From the NCBI GenBank assembly GCA_015063235.1, contig SUSW01000003.1, positions 1 to 62,331 on the forward strand: 62,331 nt of DNA, given 5' to 3'. Position numbers and translations under genes: made by a program. The DNA is from Thermoplasmata archaeon (GTDB lineage Archaea > Thermoplasmatota > Thermoplasmata > Methanomassiliicoccales > Methanomethylophilaceae). Positions 37,683-39,004 of this stretch are shown piece by piece. Position 1 is the first letter of the stretch. Each line of letters opens with the position of its first letter. The notes beneath the pieces were generated by a model. The model ran no database searches. It had not been told where the DNA came from and was given only the letters and a program-made list of their open reading frames with translations.

Positions 37683-37742
37683 GACCCGCGGATTCGGGAT
37701 GAGGTATTTACATGATTTGACTGCAAATGTTGGATATAATTG

Positions 37743-37749
37743 AAAAAAA
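37743..37749 (-). terminator. T-tract terminator of the tRNA-like array
   Basis: Read on the minus strand, the last array element ends in CCGCC-ATCTC followed directly by seven T. Archaeal RNA polymerase stops on such T runs. It marks the 3' end of a transcript about 1.1 kb long that would contain all the tRNA-like elements. Confidence 0.55.
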
Positions 37750-37808
37750 GAGATGGCGGAGTCGAACCGCCCAGCCTCCGCATACACGGAGGGAACTCAC
37801 CGGAGTCC
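37750..37808 (-). ncRNA. Acceptor-less tRNA-like element (array position 6)
   Basis: The last element before the terminator has a perfect T arm (GGCGG-TTCGACT-CCGCC, 37755-37771), an anticodon-like hairpin with six pairs and a six-base loop (CCTCCG/CGGAGG, 37775-37792) and a D-like hairpin ACTC/GAGT with a four-base loop (37795-37806). No pairing acceptor stem can be found. It may be a decayed tRNA or a structural end cap. Confidence 0.35.
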
Positions 37809-37828
37809 TATACACAACCTATGACCTT

Positions 37829-37898
37829 AGTCTTAGGGGGTAATCGAACCCCCATGTCCCGGCGAATACCGGGTGCACCACAAGTGTGCCACAAGACT
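37829..37898 (-). ncRNA. tRNA-like element with 6-nt anticodon-position loop (array position 5)
   Basis: Minus-strand cloverleaf with a seven-pair acceptor (AGTCTTG/TAAGACT), D stem GCAC/GTGC, anticodon stem CCCGG/CCGGG and T stem GGGGG/CCCCC. Two loops are abnormal: the anticodon loop has six bases (TATTCG) and the T loop eight (TTCGATTA), so decoding is doubtful. It shares the GCAC-GTGC D stem with all complete elements of the array. Confidence 0.45.
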
Positions 37899-37905
37899 GA
37901 TTGCT

Positions 37906-37975
37906 GACCATAGAGGGACTCGAACCCCCGCCCCGACCCCTGCAAGGTCGTGCACTGCCCCTGTGCTATATGGTA
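37906..37975 (-). tRNA. tRNA-Cys(GCA)-like element (array position 4)
   Basis: Minus-strand cloverleaf: acceptor ACCATA/TATGGT (six pairs, with the terminal pair mismatched), D arm GCAC-AGGGGCA-GTGC, anticodon arm CGACC-TTGCAGG-GGTCG with anticodon GCA, variable GGGC, T arm GGGGG-TTCGAGT-CCCTC. The core is nearly identical to the two elements at 38304-38373 and 38377-38446, but the acceptor stem is different and compensated. The expected U discriminator of tRNA-Cys is not present. Whether it is charged with cysteine is open. Confidence 0.5.
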
Positions 37976-37978
37976 ATG

Positions 37979-38047
37979 TACCTAAGGGGTGATCGAACCC
38001 CAGATTCCCGACTGATGCCGGGTGCACTGCTTCTGTGCCACAGGCTA
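37979..38047 (-). ncRNA. tRNA-like element with 6-nt anticodon-position loop (array position 3)
   Basis: Minus-strand element three bases from its neighbour. D arm GCAC-AGAAGCA-GTGC, anticodon-position stem CCCGG/TCGGG with loop CATCAG, T stem GGGG/CCCC with an eight-base loop TTCGATCA. The acceptor is imperfect (core CCT/AGG). It has the same two irregular loops as the element at 37829-37898, so these two form a second sub-type distinct from the Cys-like ones. Confidence 0.4.
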
Positions 38048-38303
38048 TTACTTGATTATGGCGAGGTACAGCCAGCTGAGCTGGCCCACGTGCCCGAAGG
38101 CACGTGACTATGGATCGCTCGCGAGCCAATAGCGAAGCGCTGATACTGTTGTACTGACGCTGAGCTTACTGCTGGTCCAAGTGCCCGAAGGCGCGTGGAT
38201 GACGACAGCAGACCGAACGGGCGATGCCCGATGGTGGCTACGATACCGGCGAACGCTTGACGCGAACACTGATACCCACAACAAGCAGCAATGGTCTATT
38301 ACT
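38048..38303 (-). ncRNA. Structured spacer of the tRNA-like array, with TTCG-loop hairpins
   Basis: 256 bp between the two groups of tRNA-like elements. No open frame is credible. On the minus strand a perfect eight-pair hairpin CACGTGCC-TTCG-GGCACGTG lies at 38087-38106. A related imperfect TTCG hairpin lies at 38177-38198. Palindromic GCTCGCGAGC and CCAGCT...AGCTGG segments occur between them. The stable TTCG tetraloops argue for a folded RNA. Confidence 0.4.
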
Positions 38304-38373
38304 CTCCGTAGAGGGATTCGAACCCCCGCCCCGACCCCTGCAAGGTCGTGCACTGCCTCTGTGCTATACGGAC
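38304..38373 (-). tRNA. tRNA-Cys(GCA)-like element (array position 2)
   Basis: Minus-strand cloverleaf with acceptor TCCGTA/TACGGA (six pairs plus a mismatched terminal pair), D arm GCAC-AGAGGCA-GTGC, anticodon arm CGACC-TTGCAGG-GGTCG (anticodon GCA), variable GGGC and T arm GGGGG-TTCGAAT-CCCTC. It is separated from the next copy by only three bases. Discriminator A rather than the usual U of tRNA-Cys. Confidence 0.5.
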
Positions 38374-38376
38374 TAT

Positions 38377-38446
38377 ATTCCTAGAGGGACTCGAACCCCC
38401 GCCCCGACCCCTGCAAGGTCGTGCACTGCCTCTGTGCTATAGGATT
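38377..38446 (-). tRNA. tRNA-Cys(GCA)-like element (array position 1)
   Basis: First tRNA-like element in transcription order. Acceptor AATCCTA/TAGGAAT pairs at six of seven positions. The body from the D arm to the T arm matches the copy at 38304-38373 except one T-loop base. Anticodon GCA; discriminator A. Upstream lie the 128-bp hairpin repeats. Confidence 0.5.
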
Positions 38447-38454
38447 ATGGCTTA

Positions 38455-38735
38455 CCACGCGACGAGGGTTTGACCCCTCCGGATCACGCGTTAGGGATTG
38501 ACCCCTTACCGGGCGACGGGATGACCCGCCAACTGACGCGACGAGGGTTTGACCCCCCGGATACACGGTATGACCCGTATACCGATGCGACAAAGGAATG
38601 ACCCCTCCGGATCACGCGTTAGGGTTTGACCCCTTACCGGGCGACGGGATGACCCGTCAACGGACGCAACGAGGGTTTGACCCCCCGGATACACGGTATG
38701 ACCCGTATACCGATGCGACAAAGGAATGACCCTTC
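38455..38735 (-). repeat. Tandem 128-bp repeat of small GGTCA-loop hairpins
   Basis: Eleven copies of TGACCC occur on the plus strand at 38471, 38499, 38522, 38550, 38571, 38599, 38627, 38650, 38678, 38699 and 38727. The spacing pattern 28-23-28-21-28 repeats exactly after 128 bases, so a 128-bp unit is present about 2.1 times. Each copy sits in a small inverted repeat such as CGGG-ATGA-CCCG or AGGG-TTTGA-CCCC. On the minus strand these read GGGTCA-x-CCC and look like shortened T arms. No open reading frame of merit. Confidence 0.75.
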
Positions 38736-39004
38736 CCGATTGATACCGCGAACGGATGGCACGCGAGTGCTGACCGTTTGATGACGCTATGATAATGAGC
38801 TAGGTTGTGCCCACCAGGCATGGCGCCTGATGGTCCAAGTCTCCATCGACCCGAACGGGCCGTGGTCGACAAACTACATTCGTAGAGTTGTGTTATTTCT
38901 TGGCAAAGCGCATTATCACGTGCTGATATTAGAACCTTACCGTTAATCGTTCAGTGAATGTACAAACCGCTAATCATTATTATCAATAATGCAGATGCGG
39001 AGGC
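38736..39004. other. Leader region between the hairpin repeats and aconitase X
   Basis: 269 bp. 38736-38880 continues GC-rich and structured, with CCCGAACGGG at 38850-38859, and may be the 5' part of the array transcript. 38881-39000 is AT-rich and should hold the divergent promoters. GGAGG immediately precedes the ATG at 39005 as a ribosome-binding site. Confidence 0.35.

Follow-up and report, generated by a model that had tools for sequence, protein, structure and literature searches.

Gene context of the locus

The window, that is, the whole 62,331-nt stretch of DNA analysed here, corresponds to contig C21 of an archaeal genome of 1.78 Mb that is 87% complete. A run of tRNA-like units lies on its minus strand between the gene for aconitase X (Pfam AcnX) and a small gene of 96 codons, which has no Pfam match and is presumably of the SemiSWEET/PQ-loop type. 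Start to start, the gap between the two genes spans 1,317 nt, compared with 82-124 nt in seven relatives that have the same gene pair and lack the RNA locus altogether. Judged from the sequences, the locus is an apparent insertion between the two genes. AcnX is found in 28 of the 31 genomes of the genus, including that of the window; among the 28 other AcnX loci compared (L045-L072, with L073 left out), the 96-codon gene adjoins AcnX within the flank at seven, and ARAGORN detected no tRNA gene at any of the 28. One of the seven relatives with an empty site, G012, carries two members of the RNA family described below elsewhere in its genome.

The tRNA-like units do not form a free-standing array; they appear to be the central portion of a single long gene for a structured RNA. 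The predicted gene extends on the minus strand from approx. 38904 to 37743 (approx. 1.16 kb) and holds the tRNA-like cassettes, 11 hairpins with a constant GGGTCA (38740-38450) and a 5' domain. The hairpins, the 5' domain and a TATA-like box upstream, which together extend the locus to 38933, go beyond what had been recognized originally. The TATA-like box (TCTAATATCA, 38924..38933, minus strand) lies about 28 nt ahead of the conserved 5' end, CC(A/U)A, and a T tract (TTTTTTT, 37743..37749, minus strand) is the likely terminator. Folded as a whole from approx. 38904, the predicted transcript has a z-score of -5.3, and none of 40 shuffles folds as well. Automatic annotation of the locus would show only three odd tRNA-Cys genes.

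tRNA-like cassettes of the window

According to the original prediction, six tRNA-like units are arranged in two groups on the minus strand, in a run that ends in the T tract (37749-37743), and this arrangement was confirmed. It had been proposed to examine the units with covariance models; in this check, three of the six, which carry GCA at the anticodon position, passed the gathering cut-off of 29 bits of the Rfam tRNA model (RF00005), and the other three fell below it. The three GCA units, all on the minus strand, are W1 (38376..38446; 51.3 bits), W2 (38303..38373; 53.5 bits) and W4 (37905..37975; 51.0 bits). Each is called tRNA-Cys(gca) by ARAGORN, and W1 and W2 are separated by only 2 nt. 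Their folding energies are not clearly better than those of shuffled sequences (z -1.46, -1.88 and -0.96 for W1, W2 and W4; 16, 7 and 32 of 200 shuffles as good).

Two further cassettes, W3 (37979..38047, minus strand) and W5 (37829..37898, minus strand; perfect 7-bp acceptor stem), are degenerate. Their description as tRNA-like holds insofar as both fold as cloverleaves (z -2.02 with 4 of 200 shuffles as good for W3, and z -3.63 with 0 of 200 for W5), but neither exceeds any tRNA cut-off. Both are missing from the Rfam scan up to E 5; in the scan up to E 10, W5 is listed only as tRNA-Sec (17.3 bits vs. a cut-off of 47), and W3 is unlisted. The sixth unit (37808-37755), which had likewise been taken for tRNA-like, consists of three adjacent hairpins without an acceptor and does not form a cloverleaf.

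The bodies of the GCA units are nearly the same, as had been observed: only 2 of 57 body columns differ, compared with 8 of 14 acceptor columns (Fisher p 1e-5). The statement that the acceptor stems differ completely was exaggerated. Pairs 4, 6 and 7 are identical across all three units; pairs 2, 3 and 5 are changed, but 8 of their 9 cells retain Watson-Crick pairing; and pair 1 (position 1-72: A-U, G-G, U-C) is mismatched in two of the three. Each stem does pair with itself, forming six of seven pairs, but cross-combinations reach 3-6 pairs (mean 4.7, G-U allowed), so that the acceptor stems are only partly specific. The acceptor changes support selection on pairing, albeit less strongly than was first claimed.

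The GCA units resemble tRNA-Cys(GCA) in their cloverleaf, their GCA loop and a T stem, GGGGG/CCCTC, that matches the genome's own tRNA-Cys, a canonical one located on contig C12. The identity elements of tRNA-Cys are U73 and a paired G1-C72. Neither is present in the GCA units: as noted from the outset, the U discriminator is lacking, and all three have A instead in the position after the acceptor (A73). Moreover, unlike tRNA-Cys, the units lie inside a longer predicted RNA. With regard to a possible recent origin from a host tRNA, W2 finds its best match among the 37 tRNAs of the same genome in tRNA-Cys (19.5), which is itself closer to tRNA-Phe (27.5); W1 and W4 match tRNA-Thr or tRNA-Lys better than tRNA-Cys.

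Other parts of the predicted RNA

The 5' domain (38811..38904, minus strand) was fitted by hand. Stem P0, formed by CCAAG (38903-38899) and CUUGG (38839-38835), encloses hairpin P1 (38890-38870), a UGUCGA linker (38871-38866) and hairpin P2 (38865-38843), and is followed by hairpin P3 (38833-38811), all on the minus strand. The array of 11 hairpins (38450..38740, minus strand) combines the constant GGGTCA with differing stems and is organized as a 128-nt super-unit repeated 2.1 times; the GGGTCA triple pattern has nine matches in the window vs. a mean of 0.00 in 100 shuffles of the window. Between the two groups of cassettes lies a central region (38048..38302, minus strand) containing two related 27-nt hairpins, at 38197-38171 (a copy that can also be bounded as 38169-38197) and 38106-38080. 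A 14-mer (ACTTGGACCA) is common, at 93%, to the central region and the 5' domain (38827-38840). The gene ends in a conserved 3' module (37755..37808, minus strand), which comprises a D-like hairpin (loop CGGT), an anticodon-like hairpin and a T arm, GGCGGUUCGACUCCGCC, without an acceptor stem.

Related RNAs in other genomes

A BLAST search with 37740-38500 in 60 genomes, its own included, yielded one outside match of 22 nt, in G012. By eye, the RNA at this site, member B, ends at its 3' side like the window RNA, W, and contains a reduced tRNA-like element as well as five hairpins with a motif in common. The hairpins of B (L043:3960-4620, minus strand) are long and share AGCGTG(T/A)A...CTCGTG, most of them with an apical TTCATC or GGTCA; by eye, they resemble the GGGTCA hairpins of the window in plan. 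BLAST with B led to member A, on contig C16 of the window's own genome (E 3.8e-6), and a T-arm pattern with up to two mismatches, run over 147 genomes of the order, recovered W, A and B and only one further member, C. Member C belongs to another genus and has two cassettes, one of which exceeds the Rfam tRNA cut-off (31.2 vs. 29 bits). A covariance model of the 3' module (R1) added members D and E, RNAs of approx. 210 and 180 nt. In all, six members are present in 4 of the 147 genomes of the order; apart from W, its own genome contains one, and three other genomes together contain four. The number of cassettes ranges from five in W to two in C and a single reduced one in B, and none was seen in A, D and E by eye, with ARAGORN or in Rfam scans.

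The core of the T arm, a 16-mer (GGCGGTTCGACTCCGC), is identical in all six members; it also occurs in four non-members, namely two tRNA-Val loci, a viral tRNA-Ser-like stretch and a coding-looking bacterial stretch. R1 scores overlap accordingly, with 30.9 bits for E vs. 31.4 for the viral and 30.6 for the bacterial stretch. As the 3' model alone does not separate members from non-members, the membership of D and E rests on both ends together: although found by the 3' model only, they also carry the 5' motif of W, UGUCGACC...GGAGA(C)UUGG. Across the order, R1 returned eight rows, i.e., the six members and two loci within long open frames. In 400 genomes of the class, a sample that may not include G012, G069 and G123, it returned 13 rows, of which two are W and A; the other 11 are two tRNA-Val genes and nine loci lying in open frames that run for 180 codons or more from stop to stop, the two non-member rows from the order being among these nine. 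Because the R1 runs scored 14 and 38 candidates per genome under strict filters, family members may have been missed.

Other searches, as far as their hits were screened, added no member. The pattern GATGGAGACTTGG has matches in 9 of the 147 genomes, one in each, vs. three for its reversed control; two of the matches are family members (in the window and in G123), and the other seven, read as 740-base stretches, are not member-like. A contig scan gave six stretches: member B, a tRNA-Cys, a coding-looking one (L134), an element of Natronococcus, and L131 and L135, which were screened by ARAGORN and R1 and score 18.7 and 19.3 bits with the latter. In viral sequences, the GGGTCA triple pattern gave 11 stretches, of which R1 lists only L166 (16.4 bits); the 5' pattern gave 49, none with the exact 16-nt T-arm core; three further viral scans found nothing; and one returned a single stretch, judged to be a tRNA-Ser-like element beside a TROVE gene and not a member. 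BLAST searches of phages and plasmids gave six and two weak matches with W and none with E. None of the three viral loci encoding relatives of the methyltransferase beside A contains the 3' module.

Two of the elements encountered are described here in their own right. In Natronococcus amylolyticus (NZ_AOIB01000013.1), a short intergenic element occurs in two copies (L133:1030-1160 and 1960-2040), each just before a gene, and consists of GCGTTGGGAC, a T-arm-like hairpin (GGCGGTTCGATTCCGC) and the end GGGTTTCCC. It has no Rfam match up to E 1, and the nearby genes (325-1038 and 1160-1939) show weak Peptidase_M73 matches below cut-off; it appears to be a haloarchaeal intergenic element resembling tRNA. 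The viral stretch (L136:2750-3180, on the 125-kb contig IMGVR_UViG_3300044667_000075) is tRNA-Ser(gct)-like and possibly Y-RNA-like, with a YrlA score of 17.6, far below the cut-off of 69, and immediately precedes a gene with a TROVE domain (Pfam PF05731, E 2e-18).

The genes neighbouring the RNAs differ among members, except that A and B (L076:186-2984 and L151:494-3953) both lie beside a gene for a C5-cytosine DNA methyltransferase and an LRR_5 gene; methyltransferases of this type occur in only 2 of the 31 genomes of the genus at E 1e-50. Separate tRNA genes are found near B (tRNA-Lys) and on the contig of C (one or more). Just downstream of E lies a sequence resembling a C/D-box guide RNA (L156:1388-1441, minus strand; sR1 34.0 bits, cut-off 45).

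Conserved structure of the proposed family

Stem P0 is CCAAG/CUUGG in W, C and E, CCAA/UUGG in D and, by compensatory change, CCUA/UAGG in A and B. In the alignment of the 5' domains of all six members, 101 of 101 cells are paired and 14 of 19 pairs are changed on both sides; in that of the 3' modules of W, A, B and C, the figures are 63 of 63 and 9 of 18, although these counts lean towards structure because both alignments (A4 and A6) were fitted to it by hand and A6 omits inserted letters. When the partners were slid by 1-3 columns as a control, 28-60% of cells paired. In some members (C, E), P1 and P2 form only weak or interrupted helices. As whole transcripts, A (z -6.7) and B (z -4.2) fold better than each of 100 shuffles, whereas C, D and E do not stand out from theirs (z -1.05, -1.6 and -0.5; 12, 8 and 32 of 100 as good), nor do the isolated 3' modules of W, A, B and C (z -1.6 to -0.1). 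Read by eye, an A/T-rich TATA-like box also precedes the 5' end of the other five members, by a roughly similar distance of 27-30 nt.

As far as the hand-fitted structures go, the members combine a 5' P0-P1-P2 domain with a 3' module of three hairpins. By eye, the T arm is the only feature that all 3' modules and all cassettes have in common, and a D arm or D-like hairpin usually lies beside it; the acceptors and anticodon arms are not constant and may be absent. The original view of the units as tRNA mimics kept by selection on their fold, as opposed to decayed tRNAs, is supported by the contrast between bodies and acceptors and by the compensatory changes in the (hand-fitted) relatives. The cassettes themselves, however, do not appear to be the unit of selection, as had been assumed: what is conserved is a longer RNA with 5' and 3' domains, and A, D and E have no visible cassette. 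The window RNA is very probably a member of a non-coding RNA family. These archaeal RNAs, with their conserved ends and a middle that can grow, appear to be uncatalogued.

Comparison with known RNAs

tRNA is the only Rfam family to exceed its cut-off inside the members, and it does so only in W and C. In layout, the closest known RNA is GOLLD, a large structured RNA of phages and prophages; it is described as having a conserved 3' region and a variable remainder, with phage tRNAs sometimes located in a linker region (PMC12286853). The window RNA differs from GOLLD in that it lies on an archaeal chromosome, has other ends and contains cassettes that are mostly unlike normal tRNAs; the Rfam scans of the window list no match to the GOLLD or ROOL models.

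YrlA-type bacterial Y RNAs are non-coding RNAs with a tRNA-like module. A weak YrlA match extends across W1-W2 (23.6 bits, below the cut-off of 69). Together with the viral T-arm match upstream of a TROVE gene, it had suggested a Y RNA bound to Ro60, an idea that was rejected because TROVE/Ro60 was found in none of the 147 genomes of the order at E 0.001 (the window's own genome being 87% complete). The 3' module of W weakly resembles the tRNA-like 3' element of tymoviruses (RF00233; 24.6 bits, E 0.012, below the cut-off of 40), but this match turned up in the smallest search alone and in none of the other members, and no acceptor pseudoknot was seen by eye. These two weak matches say only that the 3' module and W1-W2 resemble tRNA mimics. 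A tmRNA-like closure of the 5' and 3' ends was also considered and rejected, as self pairs were no better than cross pairs in the six members. No recognisable description of this RNA was found in the literature searched, which leaves out most papers in subscription journals. A prediction of non-coding RNAs based on Rfam in three Methanomassiliicoccales genomes names SRP RNA, RNase P RNA and a group II intron (PMC4153887).

Possible roles of the array

Our preferred reading, with a probability of roughly 0.55 for the whole of it, mechanism included, is that the array forms an internal, expandable part of one non-coding RNA gene that belongs to a Methanomethylophilaceae family and acts as a scaffold or sponge. 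As comparison of the members shows, the family core comprises a 5' three-way junction (P0-P1-P2) and a 3' module resembling a tRNA elbow, with a D-like hairpin (CCGG-type loop), an anticodon-like hairpin and a T arm but no acceptor. The members differ in what lies between these ends: nothing but other hairpins in A, D and E, a single reduced cassette in B, two cassettes in C, and five cassettes and 11 GGGUCA hairpins in W. One or several tRNA-binding proteins could recognise a tRNA-shaped surface formed by the 3' module and the cassettes, and repetition would raise the number of sites. Since the T arm is universal and acceptors and anticodon arms are variable or missing, a partner recognising the tRNA elbow seems more likely than a role in charging or decoding. 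Selection for paired, partly distinct acceptor stems would be expected because each cassette must close on itself within a single transcript, while the recognised body stays constant. The repetition of both cassettes and constant-loop hairpins in W fits an RNA that multiplies sites in this way. Taken by itself, a function as a tRNA-mimicking scaffold or sponge is a tentative proposal. It is equally doubtful, if conceivable, that the RNAs represent a new class of archaeal scaffold RNA in which cassettes and constant-loop hairpins are added between fixed domains, each stem being re-drawn to close on itself. If the family holds, a small archaeal RNA with a defined core of about 180-215 nt would exist alongside a naturally occurring version that tRNA mimics and repeated hairpins have enlarged more than fivefold, and the binding partner of the tRNA-shaped scaffold would be a directly testable question. 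Were the scaffold reading true, W would be a natural modular RNA built of repeated tRNA mimics. Additional tRNA-Cys annotations in genomes of this kind might represent something other than tRNAs.

Two alternatives assign the cassettes to tRNA processing. The array might be a polycistronic precursor from which RNase P and RNase Z release CCA-bearing, charged tRNA-Cys(GCA)-type RNAs of approx. 72 nt that serve decoding or non-ribosomal use of Cys-tRNA. That three units pass tRNA models, that W1 and W2 are only 2 nt apart and that acceptor pairing is kept would all agree with such a precursor. We nevertheless consider it rather unlikely, given the missing U73, the 1-72 mismatches in two of three units, the canonical tRNA-Cys on C12 and the fact that W3, W5 and the 3' module depart from normal tRNAs; moreover, related RNAs have other cassettes or none, and none of the seven relatives that share the gene pair contains the array. 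Alternatively, the cassettes could be processing signals at which host RNase P and RNase Z cut free the 5' domain, the hairpin array and the 3' module. Acceptor pairing is a feature that both enzymes need, and it is present in cloverleaf elements that sit between other domains; however, A, D and E share the end domains without a visible cassette and the 3' module has no acceptor, which makes this explanation less probable still.

A decaying, functionless remnant of a mobile or viral tRNA array would account for the sporadic presence of the family (4 of 147 genomes), for an insert seen in one genome only, for the weak matches to phage tRNA clusters and for the position of B near an integrase gene and a tRNA-Lys gene. 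It is nonetheless improbable, because acceptors show compensatory change, as do members compared with one another, and the ends are conserved; as for a viral source, three viral scans were empty, one gave a non-member, and the hits of two others were screened in part. In a further alternative, a leader RNA would control the gene downstream, such as the LRR gene after A and B, whose LRR_5-frame ATG follows the T arm by 52 nt in A and 24 nt in B. We regard this as the least probable of the alternatives: C and D have no close co-directional gene downstream, W ends in a T tract, and the 180 nt between E and the next gene contain the C/D-box-like RNA. Compared with these explanations, an expandable scaffold or sponge RNA remains our preferred reading. 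Quite apart from this question, the LRR_5 frame after A is interrupted by a TAG (L076:183-185, minus strand) behind which the repeat continues in frame; judging by this continuity, the TAG is possibly a pyrrolysine codon.
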